This document shows, one piece after another, positions 16,477 to 32,503 of a DNA stretch of 33,442 nucleotides (its first letter is position 1; each line of letters begins with the position of its first letter). A program made the translations under genes and the position numbers. This DNA comes from a virus, in IMG/VR virus record IMGVR_UViG_3300025087_000225, positions 1-33,442 of that record, one strand, 5' to 3'. The notes under the pieces were generated by a model that worked only from the letters and a program-made list of their open reading frames with translations, made no database searches and was not told where the DNA came from.

Positions 16477-16892
16477 ATACTTACTATAAAATTGTGTATG
16501 GGTTTGAGCCGGAGAACTATATTCCCATTGAGGGTGATGAGCTTGAAAAGGCGATCTATGCTCACATGAGTTTGGCGCGAGCTGCGTTCAGGCAAGGTTC
16601 GGCAGACTTTAGTCGTGGCGGAATTATGATACAACCCGACATAAACGCCGCGATGGGTTGGACACGGGGATACAAACTCGGAGCGGACGACTACGCAGAA
16701 GTTGAGCAAAAAGGAATTGACCGCCTCCACCAAAAGCACTACTCAAAAGTAAAAGAGCGCGTGGAGTATCTAAAAGCCCACAACAAGACCGACCTCATAG
16801 GAAAAAACATACCGATACCGGAATTAGAAAAACCAAAAGGCAACGAGGAAAGAGGCGGAGAAATGAAACGAATTATACCCCCACTTAACTAA
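16470..16892 (+). CDS. Protein of unknown function next to the initiator (140 aa)
   Basis: It overlaps the organizer gene by seven bases, so co-translation is likely. The first 75 residues look folded (YYKIVYGFEPENYIPIEGDE, MSLARAAFRQGSADFSRGG, AAMGWTRGYKLGADDYAEVE). The rest is a charged helix and a Pro/Lys-rich end. In phage genomes the gene after the organizer is often a helicase loader, but no P-loop is visible here, so that is not claimed. Confidence 0.6.
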   Translation: MVNTYYKIVYGFEPENYIPIEGDELEKAIYAHMSLARAAFRQGSADFSRGGIMIQPDINAAMGWTRGYKLGADDYAEVEQKGIDRLHQKHYSKVKERVEYLKAHNKTDLIGKNIPIPELEKPKGNEERGGEMKRIIPPLN

Positions 16893-16904
16893 GAGAAAAG
16901 ATAT

Positions 16905-17813: not shown

Positions 17814-17838
17814 CCCCCCTAAAGGAGAATAAGGGGGT
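17813..17838 (+). terminator. Possible weak terminator after the methyltransferase
   Basis: ACCCCC (17813-17818) and GGGGGT (17833-17838) can pair around a 14-base loop. No T-run follows, so it may be a pause or processing hairpin rather than a true terminator. Confidence 0.35.
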
Positions 17839-17852
17839 GGGGATAAGTAGAT

Positions 17853-17880
17853 TTGACTGTAAGCGTGGGTATGCTAACAT
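17853..17880 (+). promoter_or_regulatory. Promoter of the XRE regulator (TTGACT-16-TAACAT)
   Basis: TTGACT (17853-17858) and TAACAT (17875-17880) are 16 bases apart. The ATG at 17887 begins six bases after the -10, predicting a leaderless or near-leaderless transcript, although AAGG lies just before the ATG. Confidence 0.45.
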
Positions 17881-17886
17881 AAGGAC

Positions 17887-18165
17887 ATGAATCTTAAAGA
17901 TGCACTAGATAACTTAGATTTTAAGTGTGCTTTGGTAGATGATGCCCAAAACGAGGCTGAACTCGCTCAAGTAGTAGTTGGCGAGTGTATCCGTAAAGAG
18001 CGCCGCGCCAAAAGCATATCTCTTAGAAAATTTGCAGAAAGAGTAAAAATAAGTCCGGCGTATCTGTCCGACATAGAACGAGGCAACCGCTATCCTGCTT
18101 ACGAAGTTCTCGAACGCATCAAAAGACAATTACCCGCACCCAAATCCCCCTCTAAGATAATATGA
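17887..18165 (+). CDS. XRE/Cro-family transcriptional regulator, 92 aa
   Basis: Residues about 32-80 form a helix-turn-helix of the Cro/C1 type. The pattern RKERRAKSISLRKFAERVKI then SPAYLSDIERGNRYPAYEVLERI is characteristic, with the recognition helix around residues 56-66. It has its own promoter. It stands between the methyltransferase and a run of accessory genes, so it may repress early transcription or act as a controller-type partner of the methyltransferase. The start of the next gene overlaps its stop (ATGA). Confidence 0.8.
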   Translation: MNLKDALDNLDFKCALVDDAQNEAELAQVVVGECIRKERRAKSISLRKFAERVKISPAYLSDIERGNRYPAYEVLERIKRQLPAPKSPSKII

Positions 18166-18470
18166 TTCCTAAATCTGCAATAAAAAAAGCGGTTAGTGGT
18201 GGGTGGAACTCTTCTTATTTGCCAAATGACGAAGAGTATTGGACACGAGAACATTTCTGTGTAGTCGCCCTCGACCTCTCCTTCTGGCAAGCGTTGTTTC
18301 CGTGGACAGGGTTTGACGGACATTACATAAAGTGTGCTCTATACGAAAAACAAGATGAAGATTGTAATTGTTCAAAAAAAGAAGAGTGGAAAGAAAAAGC
18401 CCACCACTTCTACGACCTCATCCTCACTGGCGGGAATACGGAAAAGTTTTGGCAAGAATTATTAAACTAA
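18162..18470 (+). CDS. Conserved-looking phage protein, unknown (102 aa)
   Basis: It overlaps the XRE gene by four bases. It is rich in Trp and other aromatics (WNSSYLP, YWTREHFC, LSFWQALFPW) with a short cysteine pair (DCNC). No known fold is recognised. The aromatic content and lack of low complexity support a real, folded protein. Close coupling to the regulator may mean co-expression only. Confidence 0.6.
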   Translation: MIPKSAIKKAVSGGWNSSYLPNDEEYWTREHFCVVALDLSFWQALFPWTGFDGHYIKCALYEKQDEDCNCSKKEEWKEKAHHFYDLILTGGNTEKFWQELLN

Positions 18471-18479
18471 GATACTAAT

Positions 18480-18578
18480 ATGAAGAAAGAGTTTGCCTAC
18501 GCAGTTAGTTCTATAATTCTCTGTTCCATCTCATTCATTGTTGCTGTCAAAATGCTAGTACACATTTTAACTAACTAA
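18480..18578 (+). CDS. 32-aa single-helix membrane peptide
   Basis: The ATG at 18480 follows ACTAAT and has no Shine-Dalgarno. After a charged start (MKKEF) comes one hydrophobic helix (about residues 9-24, SSIILCSISFIVAV). It is spaced nine bases after one gene and three before the next, as expected in this packed cluster. Such peptides often act at the host membrane. Role unknown. Confidence 0.45.
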   Translation: MKKEFAYAVSSIILCSISFIVAVKMLVHILTN

Positions 18579-18581
18579 TAT

Positions 18582-18767
18582 ATGAATAAAGAAAAAACAA
18601 TTAAAGCGTGGCTCGTCCTTGGGGGAAGAAATGATAAGGGAGGAATTGCACACCACAACTATTATCCAATGATTTTTATTCAAAGAACGAAGCCAAAAGT
18701 ATGGAAAATCGCAAACGAAAAAGCAGAGACGGTTGTCCCTTGCACCATAACTTACAAACTACCCTAA
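18582..18767 (+). CDS. Small protein, unknown (61 aa)
   Basis: It starts MNKEKTIKAWLVLGGRND and contains HHNYYPMIFIQRTKPKVW, followed by a short beta-like end. It is one of a series of small accessory genes in tight succession. No motif is known. The next gene begins with the same MNKE start, probably by shared boundary sequence rather than homology. Confidence 0.55.
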   Translation: MNKEKTIKAWLVLGGRNDKGGIAHHNYYPMIFIQRTKPKVWKIANEKAETVVPCTITYKLP

Positions 18768-18774
18768 CCCCTAT

Positions 18775-18957
18775 ATGAATAAAGAATCAAAACATTTGTG
18801 GTCGATGCGGGAAATTGAAGAGTATTACACCAAAGAGGGTGAGGATGTTTACTACCATTGGCGAATTCCCAGTATGAAAGATGATAAGTGGCACAAAGAG
18901 TTTACTGGTCACAAAGAAATTCCGTGGGTTGAATTTCCCGTCCCCCCAACAGAATAA
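18775..18957 (+). CDS. Small acidic/aromatic protein, unknown (60 aa)
   Basis: The sequence is rich in Trp, Tyr and charged residues (MREIEEYYTKEGEDVYYHWR) and ends EFPVPPTE, where the Pro pair is encoded by a C-run of the gene boundary. No known domain. It lies three bases before the next start. Confidence 0.5.
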   Translation: MNKESKHLWSMREIEEYYTKEGEDVYYHWRIPSMKDDKWHKEFTGHKEIPWVEFPVPPTE

Positions 18958-18959
18958 AT

Positions 18960-19295
18960 ATGGAATACGAACTAGCAAAACAATTGAAGGAGGCGGGGTT
19001 TCCGCAAAAGTCTCAATTTTGGTGGCACAAGGGTAAAATCAAATGGCAGGGCGGCACATCAAAGACATTTGAGAAGATGGTTGCAACTGGTTATGTCGCT
19101 GCCCCCACCATCTCCGAACTCATAGAGGCGTGTGAAGGAAAATTGTTTGCCTTGTATCGAACCGCTAATGGTCAGTGGTTCGCAGACTATCACGAGAAGG
19201 ATAACTGGCTATCTCCTAAAAAGAGCACCGATATTTTTGACACGCTTGAAGAAGTTATCGCAAAACTTTGGCTCGCATTACACGCTAATAAATAG
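18960..19295 (+). CDS. Conserved small phage protein, unknown (111 aa)
   Basis: The layout is familiar from many phages: ELAKQLKEAGFPQ at the start, TGYVAAPTISELIEACEGKL in the middle, and EEVIAKLWLALHANK at the end. Function has not been established for that group. It is probably a small alpha/beta protein. It sits between unrelated small genes with two- and three-base gaps. Confidence 0.65.
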   Translation: MEYELAKQLKEAGFPQKSQFWWHKGKIKWQGGTSKTFEKMVATGYVAAPTISELIEACEGKLFALYRTANGQWFADYHEKDNWLSPKKSTDIFDTLEEVIAKLWLALHANK

Positions 19296-19297
19296 AT

Positions 19298-19582
19298 ATG
19301 GAAAAGGTTAAAAACAATTTATCTGCTGAAGAGGTTAGGATTAGGCGTGAGGTTGTGTTTGAGTTGCGGGACTTACCACCTGCCGAAATTGCCGAGTGGT
19401 TTCACGACTTCTATGAGAGTTTCGCCAAAATGAAAGGGTGGAGTACACAAGAAAAGACCCGCGTTGCCTTTAAAGATTTGCCCGAAAAGAATAAGGAAAC
19501 AATGATTTGTACCACAAGCGCAGTCTTACAAGAACTTGCAGGAAGACTTGCTCTACCCCTTATCCAATCCCGCCCCAAATAA
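19298..19582 (+). CDS. Helical protein, unknown (94 aa)
   Basis: It is almost entirely helix-forming (EVRIRREVVFELRDLPPAEI, WFHDFYESFAKMKGW, KNKETMICTTSAVLQELA). No catalytic motif, cysteine pair or membrane segment is seen. The gene starts two bases after its upstream neighbour and ends in the first copy of a 35-bp boundary repeat. Confidence 0.6.
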   Translation: MEKVKNNLSAEEVRIRREVVFELRDLPPAEIAEWFHDFYESFAKMKGWSTQEKTRVAFKDLPEKNKETMICTTSAVLQELAGRLALPLIQSRPK

Positions 19583-19603
19583 ATAATAAGTAAGGATATG
19601 AAA
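19569..19603 (+). repeat. 35-bp gene-boundary repeat, copy 1
   Basis: This stretch covers the end of the 94-aa gene and the start of the YopX gene. It matches 20167-20201 with one mismatch (19594 G against 20192 A). The two copies are read in different frames by their upstream genes. Confidence 0.85.
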
Positions 19604-20026
19604 AGAGAAATTAAATTCAGGGTGTGGGATAAAAATGAACGGCAAATGTATCCGTTGGTGGACTTCAATCAGACTTGGATTTCTGTGCCTGTCATGGACG
19701 AAGACGGCGGTCACCTCGAACAACGAAAAAAAGACGACGTTGAGTTGATGCAATACACCGGCCTCAAAGACAAGAGCGGGAAGGAGATATACGAGGGGGA
19801 TGTTGTAAAGTTCACAGAAAAGTGTTGTGATAACGCTTACTCCTCTTTTGTCATAAACTGGGATGACATTTCTGCCAGTTTTGTCTGTAGTGACTTTAAG
19901 GGGCGTTACTATAGATGGCTTTCTTCGATGAAACCAGATACCCATTTTAGTGTTAAATATGAAAGTAAAAAAATCATCGGCAACATTTATGAGAACCCTG
20001 AGCTTTTAAATCCCCCCACTAAATAA
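19598..20026 (+). CDS. YopX-family protein, 142 aa
   Basis: The family signature is present: KREIKFRVWDKNERQMYP at the start, LMQYTGLKDKSGKEIYEGD in the middle (about 50-68) and IIGNIYENPELL near the end. YopX proteins are widespread in phages and prophages and form small beta-rich oligomers of unknown function. The gene starts inside boundary repeat copy 1 and ends NPPTK before a C-tract boundary. Confidence 0.8.
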   Translation: MKREIKFRVWDKNERQMYPLVDFNQTWISVPVMDEDGGHLEQRKKDDVELMQYTGLKDKSGKEIYEGDVVKFTEKCCDNAYSSFVINWDDISASFVCSDFKGRYYRWLSSMKPDTHFSVKYESKKIIGNIYENPELLNPPTK

Positions 20027-20028
20027 AT

Positions 20029-20184
20029 ATGGAAGAAATATCACACCATCAGTGGCAGTTAGAGAAAAAGCGTTTAGCTTTTGAGAAATATGTGCGCGGA
20101 GAATTAGATGTTGATAGTTTCCGACTTGAATTGCGCTTGGTTGACGAAACGGGAAGTATTACCGACCCCGCCCCAAATAAATAA
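20029..20184 (+). CDS. Small charged protein, unknown (51 aa)
   Basis: It runs from ATG 20029 (MEEISHHQWQLEKKRLAFEK) to TAA at 20182-20184, with a helical, charged sequence and a short tail DPAPNK encoded by the second boundary repeat. It begins two bases after the YopX stop. No family is recognised. Confidence 0.5.
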   Translation: MEEISHHQWQLEKKRLAFEKYVRGELDVDSFRLELRLVDETGSITDPAPNK

Positions 20185-20201
20185 TAAGTAAAGATATGAA
20201 A
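20167..20201 (+). repeat. 35-bp gene-boundary repeat, copy 2
   Basis: It is identical to 19569-19603 except one base. It spans the end of the 51-aa gene and the start of the DUF3268-like gene. The upstream reading frame differs from that of copy 1. Confidence 0.85.
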
Positions 20202-20615
20202 GAAGAATACGAAGTAATTTGTCCGTCTTGCGAGAAACCTGCTGAATGGATACCCAACGAGCAGGTATACGGGCGGCGATATGGTAAATCTTGGATGTGC
20301 TATTACTGCCGTGAGTGCGACTATATGGTGGGAGTGCATAACAACACCCGTCAACCACTCGGCACAATGGTCGGCAAAGAGCTTCGTAATCTCCGCAAAA
20401 AAGTTCACTCCAAAATAGACCCACTTTGGAAGACAGGAAAAATCAAGCGTGGGCATTTATATGCCCGTATCTCCAAAGCTCTCGGCTACACTTACCACAC
20501 GGGAGAAACTGACGCTGAAACTTGCCGCAAGGTTCTCTCATTAGACGAAGAATATTTGTCGGGTAAAATAAAAGAGCTAAACTTTACCCCCCCACTAAAT
20601 AGATATGAAAGTTAA
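20196..20615 (+). CDS. DUF3268-like zinc-finger protein, 139 aa
   Basis: CPSC (residues 9-12) and CYYCREC (35-41) provide a zinc site, followed by YMVGVHNNTRQPLGTM. That combination, and the helical remainder with KIDPLWKTGKIKRG and ISKALGY, is typical of a family of phage-encoded zinc-finger proteins of unknown function (DUF3268). The start lies in boundary repeat copy 2. The next gene overlaps its end by 11 bases. Confidence 0.75.
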   Translation: MKEEYEVICPSCEKPAEWIPNEQVYGRRYGKSWMCYYCRECDYMVGVHNNTRQPLGTMVGKELRNLRKKVHSKIDPLWKTGKIKRGHLYARISKALGYTYHTGETDAETCRKVLSLDEEYLSGKIKELNFTPPLNRYES

Positions 20616-20898
20616 AATCAGCAAAGAGGAGTACAAAAAGGCTTGGTACGCACACCAACCCGATGACTTGCCAGACTTCGTAGAGCTTGAAGTTGAACCT
20701 GTAGAGGAGAAGTGCACCTGCGGCCAACCGACTTATCACGAGGATAATTGTGCGCTGACGAAAGAGATAGCTGACCAGCCGAAGAAGATAGAGCTGAAAA
20801 CTGATTGTGCTGGTTGTTGTGCGTGTCCTCACCCAAACCTTGGCGATGTATGCGCAACTCTCCGACTACTCACCGACGCACACAATAAAAGGAAATGA
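20605..20898 (+). CDS. Cysteine-containing protein, unknown (97 aa)
   Basis: It starts MKVKISKEEYKKAW and has several cysteines in the second half (KCTCGQPTYHEDNC, CAGCCACPHPN), perhaps a metal site. It overlaps genes on both sides (11 and four bases). Function is not recognised. The cysteine spacing does not match a common zinc-finger class. Confidence 0.55.
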   Translation: MKVKISKEEYKKAWYAHQPDDLPDFVELEVEPVEEKCTCGQPTYHEDNCALTKEIADQPKKIELKTDCAGCCACPHPNLGDVCATLRLLTDAHNKRK

Positions 20899-21188
20899 AA
20901 AAATCCGCCGAAAACCGAATAGTAGATTTCTTAAAAGAAAATCCAACATTCTTTCCGGCGGCGCAACTCCAAAGAATGAGCTTTGCCAACAAAAACGGTA
21001 CTCTGGCCTCACCAAAAGCAATCTCAAGAAGACTGCAAGAGCTGGCCGAAGGAGAACACGCCATACTGGATGTTGAATATCCGAACGGCCACGCGCACTA
21101 CAAAATAAAACAAGAACACAGAAAAGTAAAGCAGGTGGTAGAGCGTTTATCCGATAACACCGTAAGGGTCAGTTATGTTGCGGTCTAA
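20895..21188 (+). CDS. Winged-helix-like protein, 97 aa
   Basis: The order helix (SAENRIVDFLKENP), helix-turn-helix-like segment (PAAQLQRMSFANKNGTLASP, KAISRRLQELAE) and a beta wing (AILDVEYPNGHAHYKIK) suggests a small winged-helix DNA-binding protein. The rest is a basic helix and a short strand. It may regulate transcription of the following genes. It overlaps the NinG-like gene by 14 bases. Confidence 0.5.
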   Translation: MKKSAENRIVDFLKENPTFFPAAQLQRMSFANKNGTLASPKAISRRLQELAEGEHAILDVEYPNGHAHYKIKQEHRKVKQVVERLSDNTVRVSYVAV

Positions 21189-21666
21189 GGGAAAACTCAA
21201 GCCAAGGGGAATTAAACGCACCACGGGGCGTATAAAGCCCAAGAAACGCAGGAAAAAGGGCGAGATAACGAAATTAAAGGCTAAGTTGTGGCAAATCTGC
21301 CGCCAAATCAAAAACGAAACAACTTGTTATACCTGTGGTAGACAAAATCTTACCGGCTCAAACAGACAATTAGGACATTATATAGCAAGCTCTCTTTGTT
21401 CGGTGCCGACCCGCTATAGTCTGGACAATTTAAGAATACAATGTTACAATTGCAACATAAACAAATCAGGAAACACTTTACAGTTTAGACGAAATCTAAT
21501 AAAAGAAGTTGGCATAGACGCAGTAAACGCTCTCGAAGAATATAACGAAACTCTAAAAGGAAAAGTCTATCCTAAACAATGGTTTCTCGACAAAATCACA
21601 GAATACAAAAAGTTAAAGTTATCCACATTGCAATCCAACAACCAACCTGCTATACTCGAACCATGA
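21175..21666 (+). CDS. ninG: NinG/Rap-like recombination nuclease
   Basis: The product is 163 residues. After a very basic N-terminus (about 1-35) come CYTCGRQ (Cys51, Cys54), LGHYI (His68), YSLDNLRIQC and CYNCN (Cys90, Cys93). This is the NinG arrangement, a cysteine-framed HNH-like nuclease known to act on recombination intermediates in lambdoid phages. It sits at the end of the early gene cluster. A promoter and a DnaA box for the next gene lie in its last codons. Confidence 0.75.
   Translation: MLRSKGKLKPRGIKRTTGRIKPKKRRKKGEITKLKAKLWQICRQIKNETTCYTCGRQNLTGSNRQLGHYIASSLCSVPTRYSLDNLRIQCYNCNINKSGNTLQFRRNLIKEVGIDAVNALEEYNETLKGKVYPKQWFLDKITEYKKLKLSTLQSNNQPAILEP
21628..21656 (+). promoter_or_regulatory. 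Promoter of the sugar module (TTGCAA-17-TGC-TATACT)
   Basis: TTGCAA (21628-21633), a 17-base spacer and TATACT (21651-21656) with TGC before it form an extended -10 promoter. The ATG at 21663 is six bases on, so the transcript is probably leaderless. A perfect TTATCCACA (21619-21627) abuts the -35. Confidence 0.6.
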
Positions 21667-21803
21667 ATGAAATGAATGAAGAGGTACGGAAGTTTCTTAC
21701 GGAGATAGGACGCAAAGGCGGTAAAGCGACCGCCGCCAAACACGACATGAAAGCTATTTCTAAAAAGGGCGTTGAAGCCCGCCAAAAGAAACGTGGAAAA
21801 TAA
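21663..21803 (+). CDS. KGG-repeat-like basic small protein, 46 aa
   Basis: The sequence MNEMNEEVRKFLTEIGRKGG then KATAAKHDMKAISKKGVEAR has the GRKGGKA and SKKGVEA units seen in small stress-induced KGG-type proteins, which are basic and probably nucleic-acid associated. The start is set by the promoter six bases upstream. It is the first gene of the sugar module and overlaps the next gene, which begins at a GTG inside it. Confidence 0.55.
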   Translation: MNEMNEEVRKFLTEIGRKGGKATAAKHDMKAISKKGVEARQKKRGK

Positions 21804-23037
21804 GGAAAAGAAAATCGGAGTTTTAACTACTTTTTATAAATTGGATTCTGGCTATTCGCTTTGCGCTGTTGTAGTTGACCAACTTACAGCGTTAGTGGCA
21901 CATGGACACAAACCAGTTCTGTTTACTCTTCCCACATTCAAAGACGAAGCGCTACTCCCGGCGGGTGTTGAGGTACGCAAAATTGTTCCGCAACTTATTC
22001 TCGAACCGTATAAGGGGCTTGGGTTTCCCGCCCACTGGAAAGAAGATGTTGAGAAAACAAAGAAGCTGTTTGAACTTAATTTACAAGATATAACCGACCT
22101 CATTTGTCATGACATCTTTTTCATTGATACTTATCTTCCTTATAACATTGCTCTTCGGGAGTCTGTTCTTAATTGCAAGATATACGCGTGGACTCATTCT
22201 GCCCCCTCCGACCGCCCTTCTCTTGAAAATAACCCTCATGCTAATAGGTACGTCCTACCTCCTCGTACAAAGTTGGTATATCTTAACCACGATAAAGTAA
22301 CGGCGCTCGCGGAAATGTATGGTGCGTGGGACAAGGACGTGCGGGTGGTACATAATTCCCGGGACCCGCGCACGTTCTGGGGGCTTGACCCGCTTGTACA
22401 AAGAATAGTGAACGAACACAAACTCTTTGAGGTCGATATTATCAGCGTCTACCCTCTCTCCACTCCAAGAATGGTGTCGGGGAAAGGGCTGGACAAAGTT
22501 ATTAAATTACATGGCAAACTTAAACAGTTGGGATATAAGACGCGACTCATTGTCCCTAACGCACACGCCAATGCCCAGCCGGAGCAGAGGAGTATCAGCG
22601 AACTCAAGGTCTGGGCGGCGGAGCAGGGGGTCGAAAACAACGAAATTATATTTACCTCGCAGTTCGGCAAAGAGTACGAACTTGGTGTCCCGCCGAAAGT
22701 CGTGTCCGACCTGTTCCGTATTAGCAACATCTTTATCTTCCCCACAGTATCGGAAAACTCTAGCCTCGTCCTCCTCGAAGCCATGCTGTCGGGCAACCTT
22801 TTGGTACTTAATGCGGCAGTTGGAACGCTTAGAGAACACGCTGGAGAGGGTGCTTTATACTTCGACTTCTCTTACCGAGAACCCAAAGAAAAAAATGAAG
22901 CATACTATCTCGACCTCGCCAAAATCCTCGCGTCCCAGTTCGAGAACGACAAAGCGCTCCAAGTAAAACGTAGGGCGTTGCAGAAGTTCAACTACGACAC
23001 CATTTATCAGCAAATAGAACGAGTCCTATGGGAGTAA
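21793..23037 (+). CDS. GT4-type glycosyltransferase (GT-B fold)
   Basis: The product is 414 residues from GTG 21793. A TTG at 21772 is a less likely start. The N-terminal half opens with a Rossmann-like strand (KKIGVLTTFY). The C-terminal half holds the donor-binding region: IISVYPLSTPRMVSGKGLD, then FPTVSENSSLVLLEAMLSGN with the E-x7-E pair Glu321/Glu329, and LLVLNAAVGTLREHAGEGAL. Enzymes of this family transfer sugars from nucleotide donors with retention. The stop overlaps the dehydrogenase start by 10 bases, so the pair is co-translated. The acceptor is unknown: phage DNA, virion protein or host glycan. Confidence 0.75.
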   Translation: MENKEKKIGVLTTFYKLDSGYSLCAVVVDQLTALVAHGHKPVLFTLPTFKDEALLPAGVEVRKIVPQLILEPYKGLGFPAHWKEDVEKTKKLFELNLQDITDLICHDIFFIDTYLPYNIALRESVLNCKIYAWTHSAPSDRPSLENNPHANRYVLPPRTKLVYLNHDKVTALAEMYGAWDKDVRVVHNSRDPRTFWGLDPLVQRIVNEHKLFEVDIISVYPLSTPRMVSGKGLDKVIKLHGKLKQLGYKTRLIVPNAHANAQPEQRSISELKVWAAEQGVENNEIIFTSQFGKEYELGVPPKVVSDLFRISNIFIFPTVSENSSLVLLEAMLSGNLLVLNAAVGTLREHAGEGALYFDFSYREPKEKNEAYYLDLAKILASQFENDKALQVKRRALQKFNYDTIYQQIERVLWE

Positions 23038-23834
23038 AGAAGGTCGGAATAGTTGGCTACGGATATGTCGGTAAGGTCTTTGAGCGTTTCTTCAAGACCA
23101 GCTTCGAGGTAGAAATCTACGACCCCGCGTATCCAGAATACTCTAACCTATCAAAGATAAACGAGTGTGAGTTGGCGGTGTTCTGTCTGCCCACCATCTC
23201 GAGAGAGGACGGCTCTTGCGATACCTCGGTCGTGGAGAAGATGGCGAAAGAGGTGTCGTGCCCCCTTGTCCTCATCAAATCTGCGGTAGTCCCCGGCACG
23301 ACAGACAAACTCAATGCGCAGTACGGCCTTCGGTTTGCCGTATCACCGGAGTACGCGGGGGAAGGGAAGTACTTCACGCCCTTTTGGAAATATCCTGACC
23401 CCACAGACAGTACCTCCCACGGATTCTTTGTGGTGGGCGGTCCAGAACTGGCCACGGGGAGAATTACCGAGTACATACTCAAAGTGATGGGACCCGACAC
23501 CAAGGTACACAAGATGTCTGCGGTGGAGGCTGAAATAACAAAGTATATCGAGAATAGTTGGGGGGCGACCAAGGTTACCTTCGCCAATGAGTTCTACGAA
23601 ATCTGCAAAGCATATGGCGCTGACTTCCAAAAGGTGCGGGAGGGGTGGACGGCCGACCCCCGGGTGGAGAGGATGCACACCATGGTGCTTTCTGATAAAC
23701 GAGGCTTCGGAGGGAAATGCTTTCCGAAGGATGTGGCCGCGATACTCCACGCCGCCGCCCAAAAAGGATACAAGGCGGAGCTGTTACGGCAGGTGTTACA
23801 CTCAAACGAGGAGTTTATAAAGAAAAACGTATGA
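23028..23834 (+). CDS. UDP-glucose/GDP-mannose dehydrogenase family protein, short form
   Basis: The product is 268 residues. The NAD site GYGYVG (10-15), SPEYAGEG (106-113), E-x3-KYIENSWGATKVTFANEF (about 168-189) and the catalytic GFGGKCFPKD (226-235, Cys231) are all present. These enzymes oxidise UDP- or GDP-sugars to uronic acids. Family members are usually near 400-450 residues. Here the protein stops soon after the central domain, so the C-terminal nucleotide-sugar-binding domain is missing. It may use a partner protein or an unusual substrate. It is preceded by a GT4 enzyme and overlaps a methyltransferase gene. Confidence 0.8.
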   Translation: MGVKKVGIVGYGYVGKVFERFFKTSFEVEIYDPAYPEYSNLSKINECELAVFCLPTISREDGSCDTSVVEKMAKEVSCPLVLIKSAVVPGTTDKLNAQYGLRFAVSPEYAGEGKYFTPFWKYPDPTDSTSHGFFVVGGPELATGRITEYILKVMGPDTKVHKMSAVEAEITKYIENSWGATKVTFANEFYEICKAYGADFQKVREGWTADPRVERMHTMVLSDKRGFGGKCFPKDVAAILHAAAQKGYKAELLRQVLHSNEEFIKKNV

Positions 23835-24901
23835 CATACGAACTGAATAAAAAATGCGAACGTTGCGGTGCTCCGTTGCCGGACGACTTTGGTAACCTCC
23901 TTTGTTTTGAACACTACACCGCCCTCGAAGAAGAAACTGCCAAACTGAACACTGAGAGAAAAATCCAAATGGAGGCTGAATTGTTAAAAAACCCCGAAAG
24001 TCCGACCCACCCCGAAGTGGTGGAGCCTCTTAATCCTGCCCCGGGAGAAGTGCCACCGGTCGGTGCGGTAACTGCGACCCTGCCGGAGCAGGAACAAGTG
24101 GCTTGCGACCACTCTAACTGTGGAATACTAGACCCCAACTACAAAGAAAACCCCGAGCAAGATGACAAAGACCAAGTGCTTGCGAACCTAGCGCAATTTA
24201 TTTATACGCATCGGGACAAGGAACACCCCAAAGGAAGAAAACACGGCATCCTCCTCTATTATCCACAGAGGAATATGTACAACTTCGTCAAGAATTACTG
24301 CATGAAGAAAGCGGTTAGCCACCCGCAATACCCTAAGTACATTTGGAAGCCAAAGATAGTGGACGTGGGATGCGGTTCGGGTGTCGGCTCCAACATCCTC
24401 TCCCTCGAAGCCGACATGGTGTGGGGCATAGACAAAAATTCATTCTCCATTGAGTTCGCCAAAGAAGCGTTTACGAGGGAAAAGAATGGCATCTACTACT
24501 CAAGCCAAGTTACGTTTGATGAGATAGACCTGATGAACGATAACCGGCAGTTTATGGCGTTTGATGTGGTGGTATCCATTGAAGTAGCAGAGCATATTGC
24601 CGACATACACGGCTATCTCACCCAACTAAAACGATTTACCAAGCGTGACAAAAGAGGAGCCGTCATCAAAGACCAAGGCACAGAGTTCTTTATCTCCACC
24701 CCCAATAGAAATAGTGCAAAGATACGCAAAGACAGGCCAGAGAACGTATTTCATGTACGCGAGTGGACTTCTCAAGAATTCAAAGCGTTATTGCTCAAGC
24801 ACTTTGAGCAGGTCGAGCTTATGAATGACAAGGGTGAGCCGGTACCTGACGATTCCGACCACCAAATTATATTCGCTAAGTGCAGTTGGCCTCTATGTTA
24901 G
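23831..24901 (+). CDS. SAM-dependent methyltransferase with N-terminal zinc motif
   Basis: The product is 356 residues. An N-terminal Cys motif (CERCG at 9-13, with Cys25 and His28 in LLCFEHY) is followed by a Glu/Pro-rich linker (about 32-112). The catalytic part has motif I VDVGCGSGVG (177-186), an acidic residue after strand two (GIDKNS), and SIEVAEHI (249-256) with FISTPNRN (287-294). This is the UbiG/Methyltransf-type class I fold used on sugars, lipids and small molecules rather than DNA. It overlaps the dehydrogenase gene by four bases. O-methylation of a sugar is the likeliest job. Confidence 0.7.
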   Translation: MTYELNKKCERCGAPLPDDFGNLLCFEHYTALEEETAKLNTERKIQMEAELLKNPESPTHPEVVEPLNPAPGEVPPVGAVTATLPEQEQVACDHSNCGILDPNYKENPEQDDKDQVLANLAQFIYTHRDKEHPKGRKHGILLYYPQRNMYNFVKNYCMKKAVSHPQYPKYIWKPKIVDVGCGSGVGSNILSLEADMVWGIDKNSFSIEFAKEAFTREKNGIYYSSQVTFDEIDLMNDNRQFMAFDVVVSIEVAEHIADIHGYLTQLKRFTKRDKRGAVIKDQGTEFFISTPNRNSAKIRKDRPENVFHVREWTSQEFKALLLKHFEQVELMNDKGEPVPDDSDHQIIFAKCSWPLC

Positions 24902-25017
24902 AAAAACTTTTCCGTCCTATAGATTGTTTTTTGAGTACATTGTCTGATGGAACTCTCCAGGTGCTTGCTCTTGTAGTCTTAGTTGTTGGGCTAGTAGCAA
25001 TAGTATTATTTACATGA
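24895..25017 (+). CDS. 40-aa single-helix membrane peptide
   Basis: It overlaps the methyltransferase stop by seven bases. After MLEKLFRPIDCFLSTLSDG there is one hydrophobic helix (LQVLALVVLVVGLVAIVLF, about residues 21-39). Such a peptide could anchor or recruit the sugar enzymes to the membrane. That is inference from position only. Confidence 0.45.
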   Translation: MLEKLFRPIDCFLSTLSDGTLQVLALVVLVVGLVAIVLFT

Positions 25018-25059
25018 AAAACTATTCACTAAGTGTGCTTATCCGTTAAATTAAATAAT

Positions 25060-25215
25060 ATGGAAATTAAAGAAATCGGTAAATGTCCTCATAATGACGA
25101 TATAACCGCTCATCATCTTCAGTTAGTAGATACTGAAACAGACCCTAGCTACAAAACTCTTGTGTTTGTGTGTGTGCCGCATGGTGTAGTGTTTACGACA
25201 AAAGTGGAAATCTAA
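25060..25215 (+). CDS. Small protein, unknown (51 aa)
   Basis: The ATG at 25060 follows TTAAATAAT and no Shine-Dalgarno. The sequence (MEIKEIGKCPHNDDITAHHL) is beta-like with CPHND, HH and CVPHG, perhaps a small metal site. It sits four bases before the GT2 gene. No family is recognised. Confidence 0.5.
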   Translation: MEIKEIGKCPHNDDITAHHLQLVDTETDPSYKTLVFVCVPHGVVFTTKVEI

Positions 25216-25219
25216 GCCC

Positions 25220-26491
25220 ATGTCCCGAAGTAAAGACCGAGTAGCCAACACGATAGACAAACTCAAAGCGGTATTTGAGCAGTCAAATCACTTCCAAGAG
25301 TATTTGGATAATGAAGGTGGCGTGGCCGAAACAAAAGATGACCTCTTGTTGTCAGTTATCATCCCCGCGCGGAACGAATTTCCAAACATCGTCCATACCA
25401 TCCATAGTATCCTTAATTGTTGGGAGGGCGATGGATTTACTCACGACCAAATAGAAATAATCGTGGTAAATAATTGCTCAACAGACTTCAATGACCCAAA
25501 ATACGACCACAGCAAGCCTGGCGACCGAGGAACAACAGAACATCTCATGCCCCGAGGGATTTACCATTCGCGTATACTGCGCGTCTTGTACGACCCTATT
25601 GCTGGCAACCACTCTGCACGGAACAAGGGGGCACGAATTGCACGAGGTAAATTCCTTTTCTTTAGCGACGCACACATGTCCTACGCGCCCGGCGCGTTCA
25701 GGTACGGCATCCAAGCGTGTGAGGAAAGCGGAGGCATAGCCCACATGGGCATAGCGTGGATGGGCGGCTATCCACAACACCCCACAAGCGTTGGAACGCA
25801 ATACACCATCAAGCTAGGAGAGGAAATCAAAGGCACATGGGCAACCTATAGGCCGTGGGATAACAGCAAAGGGTGGTTTTATATCGCCGCCCAAGGCCAC
25901 TGCTCGTTATTCGTGAAACGGACCCAGTTTTTAGACTTTGGCGGCTACCCTGAAATACACCGAACCTATGGAGGCGGGGAGTTTTACACCAACATGAAAT
26001 GGTGGATGTTTGGCTCAAGCGTGGTATGCGAGCCGCGAGCGGTGGGCTATCACCTCGCCTCATCAAGAGGATATTCCTACAACCACGACGACTATATCCA
26101 CAATGTATTCAATATGGGTCATGCTTTAGGAGCAGATGGGTGGCTAGAACGCACCTACATCAACCACCTGCGCCGTGGACGCAAGGAAGTGCTGGATATG
26201 ATGTTAGAGGAGGCTAAGCGGGAAACAGCGCAGGATAGGGTATATATCGCGTCTAGGAGGGTGTGTACCTTTAACGACCTGCTGGTCAACAAGCCGTGGG
26301 ACAAAAAGAACATAGAAAAAGGCGGCGCAAGTAATAGCTCAATGCTAATTTTCCACGATACTTGGCTCCCCCTGCTGGACGGCCACCCCATAGCGAAAGA
26401 GGCATACGAAAACTCCCAATATCAAAAGGAATTGGAACAGTTTATCAACGAAAACCTATCACAATATGTTTACAAGCGTACAAGTTCTTGA
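25220..26491 (+). CDS. GT2-type glycosyltransferase (GT-A fold)
   Basis: The product is 423 residues. After a 40-residue lead come LSVIIPARNE (44-53), IIVVNNCSTDF (80-90), HSARNKGARIARG (131-143) and the metal-binding FSDAH (148-152), then GWFYIAAQGHCSLF and YGGGEFYTNMKWW (250-262). This is the GT2 GT-A fold with a D-x-H metal site, like inverting polypeptide or polysaccharide glycosyltransferases. It has no membrane helix. It closes the sugar module that begins at 21663. A terminator stands downstream. Acceptor and donor are unknown. Confidence 0.8.
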   Translation: MSRSKDRVANTIDKLKAVFEQSNHFQEYLDNEGGVAETKDDLLLSVIIPARNEFPNIVHTIHSILNCWEGDGFTHDQIEIIVVNNCSTDFNDPKYDHSKPGDRGTTEHLMPRGIYHSRILRVLYDPIAGNHSARNKGARIARGKFLFFSDAHMSYAPGAFRYGIQACEESGGIAHMGIAWMGGYPQHPTSVGTQYTIKLGEEIKGTWATYRPWDNSKGWFYIAAQGHCSLFVKRTQFLDFGGYPEIHRTYGGGEFYTNMKWWMFGSSVVCEPRAVGYHLASSRGYSYNHDDYIHNVFNMGHALGADGWLERTYINHLRRGRKEVLDMMLEEAKRETAQDRVYIASRRVCTFNDLLVNKPWDKKNIEKGGASNSSMLIFHDTWLPLLDGHPIAKEAYENSQYQKELEQFINENLSQYVYKRTSS

Positions 26492-26608
26492 GATTTTTGT
26501 AAAGTTTGCCCCGCCTCACCCAAAGTGTAGCTGTACGCCCTGATGTTTAACAAAAAAGCCCTGCACTACTAGCTCGGCCTAGCCTAGCCCCCCAGACAAA
26601 CAAAAAAA

Positions 26609-26640
26609 CCACACATGCTTGCGTAATTGTGTGGCCTTTT
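26609..26640. terminator. Bidirectional terminator between convergent operons
   Basis: CCACACA and TGTGTGG form a seven-bp stem around 12 bases, with a run of seven A before and CCTTTT then a T-rich run after. It separates the sugar module (+) from the minus genes ending at 26653. Confidence 0.75.
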
Positions 26641-26652
26641 GCTTTTTGGCTT

Positions 26653-26973
26653 TTAGTTATGTATCAAACATTCGCCATTATGCGGATGCTTATAGCTACA
26701 CACTTCACCTTTTTGCTTTTCGCCTTTTGTTACATCCCTTCCGTTTTCAGTGTGGTGATGCGCCTGTACTATGGTGTACATAGGCTCTCGACAATCGGCA
26801 CACCTTTCGTGCGGTGCATAGGTTATTTCTAACTTGCCCGCTTGATTATAGTATACTCTTAATGCCGCAAGGATAGTTTCCCTATCCTCTCCGCGCACCT
26901 GTACCTCAACAAACAGATTGCCACCTTGCGATTTTTGCGCCCTCTCACTCGTTACTGTAGCGTAGAGTTTCAT
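26653..26973 (-). CDS. Conserved-looking small protein, unknown (106 aa)
   Basis: The N-terminal half forms an alpha/beta unit (MKLYATVTSERAQK, GNLFVEVQVRGEDRETILA). The C-terminal half has CADC, HHH and CSYKHPHNGEC, which may bind metal. It is the second gene of a minus pair, beginning five bases after the upstream gene's stop. No known function. Confidence 0.6.
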   Translation of the reverse strand: MKLYATVTSERAQKSQGGNLFVEVQVRGEDRETILAALRVYYNQAGKLEITYAPHERCADCREPMYTIVQAHHHTENGRDVTKGEKQKGEVCSYKHPHNGECLIHN

Positions 26974-26978
26974 AAAGT

Positions 26979-27269
26979 TTAATAATTTGCGATAATTAAA
27001 CCGCTATCAAACTCTATGACCGTGGTGTTGTCTTGCAGTTCCTCTATTGTTTGTATTTTTGGGTATTGTTCTTGAACTTCTTTTAGGTCTTTATACTCGG
27101 TATACTCGCAACAAAGGGCTACTATATCAAGTTCTATTTTTTCTCCGGTCTCATTCTCCAATTGTTCTAGATAGTCAAACAAAGCTCGCTTACCATCATA
27201 GGTAAAGTTATTTTTGTAAGTATCCCAGAACGCATCACAGAACTGACTGAAGTTTATATGCTGTATCAT
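26979..27269 (-). CDS. Conserved-looking phage protein, unknown (96 aa)
   Basis: The pattern FCDAFWDTYKNNFTYDGKRA then LFDYLEQLENETGEKIELD and IVALCCEYTEY is familiar from small uncharacterised genes of many phages and mobile elements. It is probably an alpha-helical protein. Its start is preceded on the minus strand by about 45 bases and then by a highly structured stretch (27314-27435), which could be its leader. Confidence 0.65.
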   Translation of the reverse strand: MIQHINFSQFCDAFWDTYKNNFTYDGKRALFDYLEQLENETGEKIELDIVALCCEYTEYKDLKEVQEQYPKIQTIEELQDNTTVIEFDSGLIIANY

Positions 27270-27313
27270 CTGTTATTCAATTATCAATGAACCGCACCGC
27301 AAGCTATACGGCA

Positions 27314-27435
27314 CCAGCTTATACGCTGGAATAGGGTAGCGGGCTTACTGGCTCTTAACACTGTGTCCCGCGCCCCTATTTCAAAGTACAAGTCATGGGC
27401 TACTGTAGCCCCCTGTAGCGCCCTAAAGCGCCACA
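27314..27435 (-). ncRNA. Multi-hairpin non-coding element
   Basis: In a 175-base gap between minus genes, several stems follow one another. CCAGC/GCTGG lies at 27314-27329. A 14-base arm pair with 12 matches lies at 27330-27343 and 27367-27380. GGGCTAC/GTAGCCC lies at 27397-27411, and GCGC/GCGC follows at about 27418-27432. The strand is uncertain, and minus is chosen because both flanking genes are minus. It could be a leader or regulatory RNA. No tRNA or known riboswitch was recognised. Confidence 0.4.
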
Positions 27436-27444
27436 GAAGATACA

Positions 27445-27654
27445 CTAGTGATACCAACTAGCAGAACTCTTACACTCCGGCCATACTCCGTGCATATCGT
27501 AGTAATAGGTAGGATTTACGCCGTACTCATATTTTATGCACTCGCCGTATTGTTGCGCCCTCACGGCCTGGGCCTCATCAACCTCACTGGTGAAGCCTAT
27601 ATACCACGCACCAAGCGGGATCAACACCAGAACGGCCAGGATTGTTTTAATCAT
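27445..27654 (-). CDS. Small exported or membrane-anchored protein, 69 aa
   Basis: An N-terminal hydrophobic helix (MIKTILAVLVLIPLGAWYIG) acts as signal anchor or signal peptide. The following part has two cysteines (GECIKYEY and WPECKS) that could form a disulfide outside the cytoplasm. Tyr-rich YEYGVNPTYYYDMHGVWPEC looks conserved rather than random. Role unknown. Envelope targeting suggests superinfection exclusion or lysis timing as options. Confidence 0.55.
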   Translation of the reverse strand: MIKTILAVLVLIPLGAWYIGFTSEVDEAQAVRAQQYGECIKYEYGVNPTYYYDMHGVWPECKSSASWYH

Positions 27655-27730
27655 ATTTCAAAATGAACTGATAAACCCTCATATACTATATACCAACCTG
27701 CTTGATTGTACAGTGAAGAAAATATACCAC

Positions 27731-27758
27731 TGTGGACAACTCAAAATAATGGTATAAT
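27731..27758 (+). promoter_or_regulatory. Extended -10 promoter (TGGTATAAT) with DnaA-box-like element
   Basis: TGG-TATAAT (27750-27758) lies nine bases before the ATG at 27768. TGTGGACAA (27731-27739), one base from a DnaA box, lies 22 bases before the -10. The same pair of elements recurs at 28803-28829. Confidence 0.55.
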
Positions 27759-27767
27759 AGGCTATAT

Positions 27768-27983
27768 ATGGTACTATTCTTGACAATAATCAGTATTATT
27801 TCTGTAGTATTTCAAGCACTAACGGTATTTATACTGTGGCTCATATTCGCCGCACTAACAGATACCAAAACAGTGGCCGGCACACTAACAAAAGTTAAAC
27901 AACTTATACATTCAAAGGTCAGTTTCATTTCACCAACAAAACTCAAAACAATGCTGGAAGTAGAAAAAGAGCTTACTAAATGA
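27768..27983 (+). CDS. Membrane protein, unknown (71 aa)
   Basis: A long hydrophobic N-terminal half (VLFLTIISIISVVFQALTVF and ILWLIFAAL) gives one or two membrane helices. The second half is polar and basic (TKVKQLIHSKVSF). It stands first in the packaging operon, four bases overlapping the small terminase gene. It is not an evident holin since the lysis cassette is elsewhere. Function unknown. Confidence 0.55.
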   Translation: MVLFLTIISIISVVFQALTVFILWLIFAALTDTKTVAGTLTKVKQLIHSKVSFISPTKLKTMLEVEKELTK

Positions 27984-28444
27984 TTATGGACACACCAACC
28001 ATCAACCAAGCAGATTCAAACGCGCCACAAACGATTGTAGAGCGTCAAAAACCGCCCAAAAGGATTAAAACAGGCAGAATGTACTTAGAGAGGGCTTTTC
28101 CAAAAGCATATATTGATAATGGATTAAACGGCACCAAAGCATATCAAAGCATTAAGAAGACAAAGAATGCAAAGGTAGCAACTGTTAGTGCAACACGACT
28201 GTTGTCAAAAGCTAGTGTGCAGAAAGGTATTGAAGCGTTATTGCCCTCTGAAGAGGAAACGATGAAGGTGTTTAAAGAAGTCTACGCGGCTGAACGTGAA
28301 GAGATTTTGCCTTACAAAGACCTGCACAAATTCCTTGTTACTGACTTACAGCTTAGGGGCAAGCTCAAGGACAACAACAGCACCAACGTACAAGTAAATA
28401 TGGTAATAGACGGCAACACTACAACACACGACAAACAGCTATAA
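27980..28444 (+). CDS. terS: Terminase small subunit (putative)
   Basis: The product is 154 residues. The pattern FPKAYIDNGLNGTKAYQSI, then NAKVATVSATRLLSKASVQKG is that of the N-terminal helix-turn-helix region of small terminases, which bind the packaging site. A helical C-terminal part (EEETMKVFKEVYAAEREEIL, KDLHKFLVTDLQLRGKLKDN) would form the oligomerisation and TerL-contact region. It lies upstream of the large terminase, separated by a non-coding stretch and one small gene. Confidence 0.65.
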   Translation: MIMDTPTINQADSNAPQTIVERQKPPKRIKTGRMYLERAFPKAYIDNGLNGTKAYQSIKKTKNAKVATVSATRLLSKASVQKGIEALLPSEEETMKVFKEVYAAEREEILPYKDLHKFLVTDLQLRGKLKDNNSTNVQVNMVIDGNTTTHDKQL

Positions 28445-28764
28445 TATGGCTTAACAAAGGGATATTGTATTTATTGTTTATGCACTCATTTGTCAATAGG
28501 TAAAGAACCCTTATGTAGCAACGCCTATAAACGTGTCGCACAATGTTTATTGTACGCGTGTGTAGATAGGAAGGGGTGGGGGAGAGGAACAACCCCCGCC
28601 ATATCGGGAGGAGTAACATATCAATCCTCACACAATAACCCTCCCCCGAACCCAACTTGACAGCAAACAAGATAAATGTTGCATATATTTAATTATATAT
28701 AGGGGGTGGGGTAATTATTAGAACGGGCTTTTCTTGTAGGTACGGTACTTTGAATTTATAGGAT
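28445..28764. other. Non-coding stretch between small and large terminase, candidate packaging site
   Basis: No gene is credible in 320 bases. It holds a hairpin with ACAAT/ATTGT arms (28540-28553), an eight-bp G-rich stem GGTGGGGG/CCCCCGCC (28575-28600), a TTGACA at 28657-28662 followed by an AT-rich run, and repeated TTTATTGT. Being beside terS, it is a reasonable place for a pac or cos site, but nothing proves that. Confidence 0.35.
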
Positions 28765-29136
28765 ATGGCTAAAAATAAGGGCTACGGTTGTCAACAGGGG
28801 GCTGTGGATAACTATTTGGAGTGTATAATAACAACCATGAACACTAATGATGCCAACCGGTATCTGCGCAAGTATGGGGCGGAGAAGCTCTCTAAAACCC
28901 ACGAGGGGCGCAAAATCATTGAAAAGGCTAAGGAGAAGTACCGGATAGATTTGTTGCAGCCGGGCGACCCGGAGTTTAAAAAGCACTGGGGCAAGGTATT
29001 TGACGCTAACAAGCTCAAGAGAGAGCAAGACGAACGTAGAAGTAAAGAGATGTGGGCGATGACCAAAGAGCGGCAGGAATTTGAACAAAGACAGAGAACA
29101 GGACAGGGTACAGACTGGAAGTCTAAACGGCTATGA
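28765..29136 (+). CDS. Small protein between terminase subunits, unknown (123 aa)
   Basis: The N-terminal part is followed by charged helices (RKIIEKAKEKYRIDLL, ANKLKREQDERRSKEMW). A second in-frame start at 28837 has TATAAT exactly seven bases upstream and would give a 99-residue leaderless product, so the true start is uncertain. It overlaps the large terminase by four bases (ATGA), implying coupling. It may be a packaging accessory factor. No motif is known. Confidence 0.55.
   Translation: MAKNKGYGCQQGAVDNYLECIITTMNTNDANRYLRKYGAEKLSKTHEGRKIIEKAKEKYRIDLLQPGDPEFKKHWGKVFDANKLKREQDERRSKEMWAMTKERQEFEQRQRTGQGTDWKSKRL
28803..28829 (+). promoter_or_regulatory. Internal TATAAT promoter with inverted DnaA box
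   Basis: TGTGGATAA (28803-28811, complement of TTATCCACA) is followed by TATAAT (28824-28829), and an in-frame ATG comes seven bases later at 28837. The layout matches that at 27731-27768. Confidence 0.5.
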
Positions 29137-30617
29137 TAATCAAGTTCTCTACCTCTGAGGGAGAGGTGTTGTGCGGACCGTGGGATTTAAACCCCTCGCA
29201 GGAGAAGTTTTGGAATTCCAAGAAGAAGTTCGTGTTGTTTTCTGGGGGGTACGGGTGCGGGAAGAGCCTTATGCTCACCCTGAAGGCCATCAACCACGCC
29301 CTCACCTATCCGAACAACTACATCCTCATGGGGCGGCGCACCTACCCGGAACTGCGGGACACCCTCCTCAAGGAGTTCTTTACCATTTGTCCGGATGCCC
29401 TTATCAAGGATTACCTCAAAGCAGAGGGTCGTATCATCTTTCATAACAAGTCGGAAATTGTGTTTAGGCATTTGGATACTATGGCGGCTTCGGAAATACG
29501 CTCCATGAACCTCGGTTCTGCTTTTATTGACCAAGCGGAGGATATTAGCAAGGAGGTGGTGGAAGGTTTGCGGGGTCGCTTGCGCCGGGAGGGTATCCCC
29601 GACGAAGCCCGCCAGATATTTATGTCCTGCAACCCCGCCTTGACGTGGTTGTTTGCGGAGTTTAAACAACACCCCCAGCCGGAATACGAGGTTATTGAGG
29701 CCTCTACGTTGGAGAATGAGAAGAATCTACCCAAAGGATACGTTGAAGACCTCCTCAAATACCCCGAAGCGTACAAAAAACAGTATGTCTATGGCATTTG
29801 GGATGAGAATTTGCTTTCGGATAGGGTAGTATTTGACCGGGAGTACCTTGCCAAGCTCGCCGTCTACACTATGGAGCCTATTGAAACAAAAGAAGGGTTG
29901 GAAATCTTCGCCAAGTTTAACGAGGGACGCGAATACCAGATGGGGATAGACGTTTCGGAGGGTATCGTGCAGGAGGGGGTGGCGCAGGAACGACAGAAGT
30001 CAGACGAATCGGTCATTACCATCACCGACCTGACGCTTGAAGAGGAGGTGGCCTCGTGGTCGGGGCGGTTACCCCCAGACATTGTCGCCGAGAAGGCAAT
30101 TCTGTTTGCAAAATACTACGCGACCAAGAAGTTTCCCATAAAAATGGTGCCGGAAATGAATTCGATAGGGCTTGCGTTGGTGAATCGTCTCAATCGTGAG
30201 CCGTCTGATTACATCCGCATCTACCGCCAGGAGACGTTCGACAAAAAGACGGGGTTAAAAAGCGAACGGGAGGGGTGGCGCACCAACCGCCAAACCAAAC
30301 CCCTGCTGGTTTCTCACTTCCAAGAACTTTTGCGCCTCCGTAACCCGAAAATCCGTTCTAAAAGAACCCTGGAGCAGTTCAAGTCCTTTGTCTACACCGA
30401 CGACGCGAAGAAACAGGGTATGGGGGCGGAGGGGGGCTTCCACGACGATCGGGTTATTTCCCTCCTCCTGTCTTTTTGGAAGAAGGGGCCGGTGTTTGCG
30501 GGCGGTGTCGTCAAAGAGAAACAAGGAAGGAGTGATATAATTATCAGGAACGGCAAATTGCACATACCCTCGTTGGCAATAGAAAGAGAAAAGACATCAT
30601 CATGGAAATCCCAATAG
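29133..30617 (+). CDS. terL: Terminase large subunit
   Basis: The product is 494 residues. The ATPase domain has Walker A GGYGCGKS (38-45), Walker B AFIDQAED (130-137) and SCNP (165-168). The nuclease domain begins around MGIDVSEG with Asp273 and ends near HDDRVISLLLSFWK (about 437-450). It cuts concatemeric DNA and pumps it into the prohead through the portal, whose gene overlaps its end by 16 bases. Length and motifs are normal for a complete TerL. Confidence 0.9.
   Translation: MIIKFSTSEGEVLCGPWDLNPSQEKFWNSKKKFVLFSGGYGCGKSLMLTLKAINHALTYPNNYILMGRRTYPELRDTLLKEFFTICPDALIKDYLKAEGRIIFHNKSEIVFRHLDTMAASEIRSMNLGSAFIDQAEDISKEVVEGLRGRLRREGIPDEARQIFMSCNPALTWLFAEFKQHPQPEYEVIEASTLENEKNLPKGYVEDLLKYPEAYKKQYVYGIWDENLLSDRVVFDREYLAKLAVYTMEPIETKEGLEIFAKFNEGREYQMGIDVSEGIVQEGVAQERQKSDESVITITDLTLEEEVASWSGRLPPDIVAEKAILFAKYYATKKFPIKMVPEMNSIGLALVNRLNREPSDYIRIYRQETFDKKTGLKSEREGWRTNRQTKPLLVSHFQELLRLRNPKIRSKRTLEQFKSFVYTDDAKKQGMGAEGGFHDDRVISLLLSFWKKGPVFAGGVVKEKQGRSDIIIRNGKLHIPSLAIEREKTSSWKSQ
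30533..30541 (+). promoter_or_regulatory. Extended -10 promoter (TGATATAAT) before the portal gene
   Basis: TGA-TATAAT lies inside the last codons of terL, about 60 bases before the portal ATG at 30602. It is identical to the elements at 1243 and 9615. It could drive portal and head genes apart from terL. Confidence 0.45.
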
Positions 30618-32398: not shown

Positions 32399-32493
32399 TG
32401 CCAGTTGTTGATGGAAAACACTTCGCGTACAGTCCGAAAGGAAAGAAGATGGCTGCTATGGCGAAGAAGATGAAAAAAGCAAAGAAAAAGTAG
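32398..32493 (+). CDS. 31-aa basic peptide between portal and scaffold
   Basis: The ATG overlaps the portal stop (TAATG). The product starts MPVVDGKHFAYSPKGKKMAA and ends as a Lys-rich helix. Peptides with this VDGKxFxYxxKG opening and basic tail are common between portal and scaffold genes in podoviruses. Their role is unknown, possibly binding packaged DNA. Confidence 0.65.
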   Translation: MPVVDGKHFAYSPKGKKMAAMAKKMKKAKKK

Positions 32494-32494
32494 G

Positions 32495-32503
32495 TGCTAT
32501 ACT
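32495..32503 (+). promoter_or_regulatory. Extended -10 promoter (TGCTATACT) of scaffold and coat genes
   Basis: TGC-TATACT lies 51 bases before the ATG at 32555. The leader has a small AGAC/GTCT hairpin near 32525-32540. It is the same hexamer and extension as at 21648-21656. Confidence 0.5.

Follow-up and report, generated by a model that had tools for sequence, protein, structure and literature searches.

A phage sugar cassette with a GT27-like glycosyltransferase and a two-domain dehydrogenase, a candidate system for virion-protein O-glycosylation

A seven-gene sugar module built on a conserved triad

The IMG/VR virus record IMGVR_UViG_3300025087_000225 (33,442 bp, GC content 47.5%; hereafter the window) carries at positions 21663-26491 a cassette of sugar-modifying genes that, judged by gene content and predicted folds, points to glycosylation of the phage's own virion proteins. 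The seven open reading frames (ORFs) that an initial annotation had placed there are borne out, all on the plus strand and overlapping or closely spaced. A 46-aa basic ORF (21663-21803) overlaps the start of the gene for a 414-aa GT4 glycosyltransferase (21793-23037; GTG start, PF00534), which is followed by a 268-aa two-domain enzyme resembling nucleotide-sugar dehydrogenases (23028-23834; PF03721 and PF00984 only). The stop codon of the dehydrogenase gene overlaps the start codon of the next (ATGA), which encodes a 356-aa S-adenosylmethionine-dependent methyltransferase with an N-terminal zinc-ribbon-like motif (23831-24901; PF13847/PF13489). Next come a 40-aa peptide with a single transmembrane helix (24895-25017; hydropathy of 3.1 across 19 residues), a 51-aa ORF of unassigned function (25060-25215; scanned as 25033-25212, with no Pfam family), and the gene for a 423-aa GT2/GT27-like glycosyltransferase (25220-26491; PF00535). 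The module had also been credited with its own promoter and a terminator. The promoter does not stand out from background, as the site ending at 21656 scores 9 of 12 and the region contains 10 such sites compared to 8.6 ± 2.9 in shuffled sequences. The terminator is plausible: a hairpin at 26609-26634 is followed by a T-rich stretch, with an A-tract on its other side, and the segment 26600-26646 folds at -12.1 kcal/mol (z = -2.16 relative to shuffles). The length of its loop explains why a consensus scan missed this hairpin.

A scan with a GT2 alignment yielded 20 viral contigs. The viral sequences discussed here are metagenomic except for the named phages, and the gene searches were pattern-based and miss distant relatives. 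In every non-redundant contig with a long enough flank, the genes occur in order on one strand as GT4, METHYLTRANSFERASE and GT2, where the middle gene is the methyltransferase. The comparison of genome context proposed by the initial annotation recovers this triad, with its gene order unchanged, in 15 further viral contigs once near-copies are excluded. Homologues of the GT4, 41-71% identical, occupy the same position in all triad contigs that reach that far, and the core residues of the enzyme are invariant in 10 homologues; its profile retrieved no informative solved relative. Both gene content and conserved order agree with the earlier description of a module for sugar oxidation, methylation and transfer, which is conserved in phages and seemingly undescribed. 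In contrast, the two elements that had been singled out as possible specific parts are accessory. The zinc motif C-x2-C-x12-C-x2-(C/H/D), which in the window reads C-x2-C-x12-C-x2-H, is found in 12 of the 16 methyltransferases, and the 40-aa membrane peptide is not conserved. In the relative G305 only 9 nt separate the methyltransferase gene from the GT2 gene, with both the 40-aa and the 51-aa ORFs absent, and the 46-aa ORF is likewise not kept in relatives.

The dehydrogenase is a recurrent optional part of the cassette, often found beside an AsnB-type amidotransferase. It accompanies the triad in the window, in loci L218, L219, L220/L222 and L223, and in contig G307, while in contig G005 (L005/L229) it lies away from the triad. 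The AsnB gene directly follows the dehydrogenase gene in L005 and is within one or two genes of it in L218, L220 and L222. Three relatives that share the phage backbone, G001, G305 and G307, have the triad with a different insert in each. In place of the dehydrogenase, G001 carries genes for an SDR enzyme, AsnB, a GT2, a methyltransferase, a second SDR enzyme and a C-methyltransferase; G305 has nothing in this slot; and G307 has another short dehydrogenase, 28% identical to that of the window, in the same slot. This identity suggests independent gain of the dehydrogenase in G307, but the approximately unbiased test does not establish it (p = 0.18). In L219, a chaperonin (Cpn60/TCP-1) gene (L219:1749-3203) lies in the cassette between the GT4 and dehydrogenase genes.

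The GT2 enzyme resembles polypeptide GalNAc-transferases

By profile comparison and predicted structure, the GT2 resembles polypeptide N-acetylgalactosaminyltransferases (GalNAc-transferases; family GT27), the enzymes with which animals glycosylate mucins, a likeness that the initial annotation missed. A profile of four GT2 sequences already matched GalNAc-transferases in the PDB, and with 16 sequences the best PDB matches are GalNAc-T4 (E = 6.8e-7), Toxoplasma GalNAc-T3, T12 and T1. Asp150, His152, G251-G253, E254, W261-W262 and H278 are invariant in all 16 sequences, with D150-A-H152 forming the DXH motif and E254 ending the GGGE motif. The AlphaFold2 (AF2) monomer model of the GT2 has a pLDDT of 84.9, and the top 50 Foldseek matches to it are all polypeptide GalNAc-transferases (best E = 2.9e-15). 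The phage enzyme therefore appears to share the GT-A fold and the DXH, GG-E and W motifs with GT27, but differs from it in having a C-terminal region that is predicted to be helical, no membrane anchor, and 16-20% sequence identity. A ricin-type lectin domain was not seen in the GT2, where Pfam reports PF00535 and a sub-threshold PF10111. The only homologue in an isolated phage is gp2 of Tunturi_4, the gene for which sits between the terminase and portal genes.

Two of the GT2 homologues are interrupted. The G307 protein (L215:8524-10566) contains an in-frame insertion of ~310 aa at a conserved KG|TW site, which starts with CVDEETEILTREGW and ends with VMLTGN before TW. The insertion is intein-like, with LAGLIDADG-like stretches, and carries no Pfam label. 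The GT2 of G322 (L232, 1979 onward) has an insert of similar size at the same KG|TW place.

Serine/threonine tracts and a second sugar island in the virion region

Near-pure Ser/Thr tracts of 40-295 residues occur in virion-region genes of the phages that carry the cassette. In the window, a plus-strand ORF that is open at its 5' end (3-1241) encodes a Gly-rich segment followed by a 217-residue Ser/Thr tract (486-1136), making its product a candidate acceptor. The tract is encoded with all ten Ser and Thr codons, a pattern that argues for selection acting on the protein and against a simple DNA repeat. Tracts are present in 12 of 15 cassette contigs compared to 1 of 13 control phages, which have the short dehydrogenase but no GT27-like gene (none was found in the control contigs read); the Fisher p of 1.7e-4 overstates independence because related contigs share ancestry. 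Where both capsid and portal genes could be recognised, the tracts are found in all 11 cassette contigs, and they are absent from 78 other viral loci (894 kb) and 80 cellular loci (858 kb). In L223, L224, L226 and L230 a gap of 9-24 nt lies between the end of the tract ORF and the GT4 gene downstream. Contig G314 has both cassette and tracts, yet none of the terminase, portal and capsid proteins of the window's lineage finds a match in it. Upstream of the GT4 gene, L218 (1155-2159) and L222 (1143-1996) encode adjacent small proteins that resemble each other in the N-terminal domain and end in Ser/Thr tails.

A sister contig, G003 from metagenome 3300009285, is 99.95% identical to the window across positions 15775-33441 and extends 12.25 kb beyond its end. 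The window is therefore a fragment of a genome of at least 45.7 kb, and not the whole of the podovirus-sized genome for which it had been taken. The genes in this extension specify capsid and head proteins, a Ser/Thr tract of 144 residues and an S74-chaperone tail protein. These are followed by a 376-aa protein with a 191-residue Ser/Thr tract and then by a second sugar island. The island encodes an AsnB amidotransferase (441 aa, with a glutamine amidotransferase domain), a polysaccharide deacetylase, two methyltransferases, two GT2s and an SDR epimerase. Comparable sets of sugar genes follow the capsid and head genes in L196 and L005.

Virion-protein O-glycosylation and host-surface remodelling

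Our preferred explanation, held with moderate confidence, is that this is a phage protein-glycosylation cassette for O-glycosylation of virion proteins with a sugar that is oxidised and probably also amidated and methylated, rather than for DNA decoration. From computed gene content, gene order, folds, catalytic residues and tract co-occurrence we infer how it could work. In the host cytoplasm, the GT27-like enzyme would attach a first sugar to Ser or Thr residues of the tract-bearing virion proteins, and the GT4 and smaller GT2s would extend the glycan. The two-domain dehydrogenase would use NAD to oxidise the C6 hydroxyl of a sugar to a carboxylate, without the usual grip on UDP, and the AsnB-type amidotransferase could convert this carboxylate to an amide. 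Methyltransferases would cap the chain, and particle or tail proteins would end up under a mucin-like coat, with the type of glycan set by each phage's own sugar-making genes.

Several observations weigh against this explanation. The Foldseek matches of the GT2 reach a TM-score of only ~0.5 at the 16-20% identity noted above, and the link to the acceptors consists of co-occurrence and gene position among related, non-independent phages. Contigs G313 and G321 carry the cassette with no tract on their partial sequences, and in Tunturi_4, of which 60 of 88 kb were read, no virion Ser/Thr tract is clearly evident. Conversely, the control G004 (L242:11656) has a long Ser/Thr tract and the short dehydrogenase and lacks a GT27-like gene; a different glycosyltransferase may serve its tract. 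Finally, the window dehydrogenase has an alanine, Ala86 (codon 23283-23285), at the position of the catalytic Thr131 of human UDP-glucose dehydrogenase (UGDH), where 62 of 65 short forms have threonine. This alanine is common to the window, L218 and L005.

The main rival is remodelling of the host surface, in which the enzymes would change the cell-surface polysaccharide of the host and so block superinfection or replace a receptor. Serotype-converting phages alter host surface polysaccharide, and the genes neighbouring the cassettes (SDR, DegT, NeuA/NeuB-like, AsnB and deacetylase) are typical of surface-polysaccharide clusters; short dehydrogenases also occur in cellular clusters of this kind. 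However, no flippase or membrane-anchored glycosyltransferase was found among the proteins scanned. The membrane-anchored GtrB-type glycosyltransferase of Gtr serotype-conversion systems is not matched, as neither the GT2 nor any other glycosyltransferase of the window has a transmembrane segment and the GT2 hits the GtrB PHROG only marginally (E = 0.097; GtrA was not searched for separately). Instead, the modelled GT2 fold is that of a protein GalNAc-transferase, the virion-region proteins with Ser/Thr tracts track the cassette, and the second island sits in the structural region. We consider host-surface remodelling rather unlikely.

A widespread two-domain dehydrogenase family

The dehydrogenase contains the GYGYVG, SPEYAGEG and GFGGKCFPKD motifs reported by the initial annotation. 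It also ends at 268 aa without the C-terminal domain, as had been noted, with Pfam assigning only the N-terminal and central domains. What does not hold is its description as a shortened enzyme, because the whole family is short. The ORFs of 80 viral relatives span 243-314 aa (median 279), and most of the 79 cellular homologues, which come from Patescibacteria, DPANN archaea, Lentisphaerae and others, have 250-360 aa. Named phages with the short form include Microbacterium phage Jayden (261 aa), Campylobacter phage CP21 (256 aa) and C48C1 (319 aa). One protein, from Helicobacter didelphidarum (L108:5998-7617), is a 539-aa fusion in which the short dehydrogenase is joined to a C-terminal region resembling a polysaccharide deacetylase. 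A frameshift that removed the C-terminal domain, which had been raised as a possible refutation, or a pseudogene origin is rejected because the gene sequence is the same in an independent contig and the family as a whole is short.

The window enzyme shares with UDP-glucose/GDP-mannose dehydrogenases (PF03721/PF00984/PF03720, TIGR03026) the NAD-binding GxGxxG Rossmann motif, the long central helix, the Glu/Lys/Asn/Cys/Asp catalytic set and the overall fold. Its AF2 monomer model has a pLDDT of 92.9 and UGDH structures as the best Foldseek matches. It differs from them in lacking PF03720 and ~32 further residues, and in the presence of His217 and Lys230; in NCBIfam, TIGR03026 scores 131.4 bits, below the cut-off of 189.8. 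The missing residues map to the N-terminal domain between β2 and the PT motif, as Asp32 is 24 residues from the PT motif in short forms and 56 in the 12 full-length proteins compared. After Asp235, a median of 37 residues remains in short forms compared to 166 in full-length ones. Glu108, Lys172, Asn176, Cys231 and Asp235 are invariant in 65 of 65 short forms and E112 is present in 62, with all six catalytic residues kept in every cassette copy. His217 and Lys230 are typical of the family. In the first scans the search pattern (GGKC) accounted for part of the Lys230 conservation, but the residue also holds in the cassette dehydrogenases that were found independently through the GT2. In the tree, full-length proteins fall on one side of a branch with SH-aLRT support of 99, and viral and cellular short forms are intermixed. 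The dehydrogenase is thus a member of a distinct and widespread two-domain family with a UGDH active site, and not a truncation.

Two other accounts of the short enzyme fit these data less well. In the first, it is an ordinary UDP-sugar 6-dehydrogenase whose UDP-binding domain is supplied by another protein. In human UGDH, Arg260, Cys276, Asp280 and Lys220 act on the glucose (PMC3184952), and the window enzyme keeps the aligned R212, C231, D235 and K172; most family members retain the central-domain sugar contacts and the arginine contributed by the partner subunit (R212, equivalent to Arg260). However, the UDP moiety in human UGDH is bound by the C-terminal, PF03720-type domain (PMC3184952), and no PF03720 domain was found in 10 viral records, including that of the window, or in five of the eight cellular genomes tested that encode a short form. 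A partner in trans is rejected for those records and genomes, and for the family as a whole we regard it as improbable. In the second account, the enzyme is a decaying, inactive remnant of a host UGDH. Loss of the C-terminal domain and the alanine at the Thr131 position of the window copy would fit decay, but the similarly short length of viral and cellular homologues, their (nearly) invariant catalytic Glu/Lys/Asn/Cys/Asp columns and the separation of full-length forms in the tree make it very improbable.

A literature search for UGDH forms without the C-terminal domain returned nothing usable. Short forms in the named phages are annotated as UDP-glucose dehydrogenase, yet the family lacks the UDP-binding domain.

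Relation to known systems

Phage-encoded glycosyltransferases modify capsid and tail proteins in mycobacteriophages Che8, Corndog and Myrna (Freeman et al, 2023, as cited in PMC12363180). With virion glycosylation established there, the kind of system proposed here is known, and it is the composition that appears new, as far as the libraries searched show. The likeness lies in the phage-encoded glycosyltransferases. The present candidate system differs in its GT27-like enzyme, its oxidising, amidating and methylating set, and its long Ser/Thr tracts. In Microbacterium cluster EC phages (Quhwah, Jayden) a short dehydrogenase adjoins a glycosyltransferase (in Jayden, the 261-aa protein above), but these genes are divergent and the 6.2 kb of Jayden that was read shows no triad.

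More tentatively, we suggest that this phage lineage may carry out mucin-type O-glycosylation, combining mucin-like virion proteins with tracts of up to ~300 residues, a GalNAc-transferase-like enzyme of its own, and a variable set of sugar-oxidising, amidating and methylating enzymes, among which the dehydrogenase may act on a sugar that it does not grip by the nucleotide. If this is true, phages make their own mucin-type coats, which would affect adhesion, receptor masking and environmental stability. The two-domain dehydrogenase family spans viruses, Patescibacteria, DPANN archaea and other bacteria. Decoration of phage DNA with sugars on modified bases, which the initial annotation had also entertained, is hardly credible: phages that glycosylate their DNA are known and this one also encodes a DNA methyltransferase (16905-17813; phrog_67), but decoration is disfavoured because the thymidylate synthase/hydroxymethylase family PF00303 is absent from five incomplete records (the window, its sister and relatives; control genomes were positive) and the modelled protein-glycosyltransferase fold of the GT2 points to a protein acceptor.

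The phage backbone

No end repeats were found in the window. The closest cellular relatives of the dehydrogenase are from Patescibacteria, but assignment of the phage to a patescibacterial host was not adopted, as a search of 287 genomes from the phylum to which one such relative belongs gave only weak matches to the GT2. Outside the cassette, the window also encodes a terminase, a portal protein, an internal virion protein and a DnaD-like helicase loader. Two minus-strand ORFs of unassigned function (26653-27269) lie between the cassette and the terminase genes.

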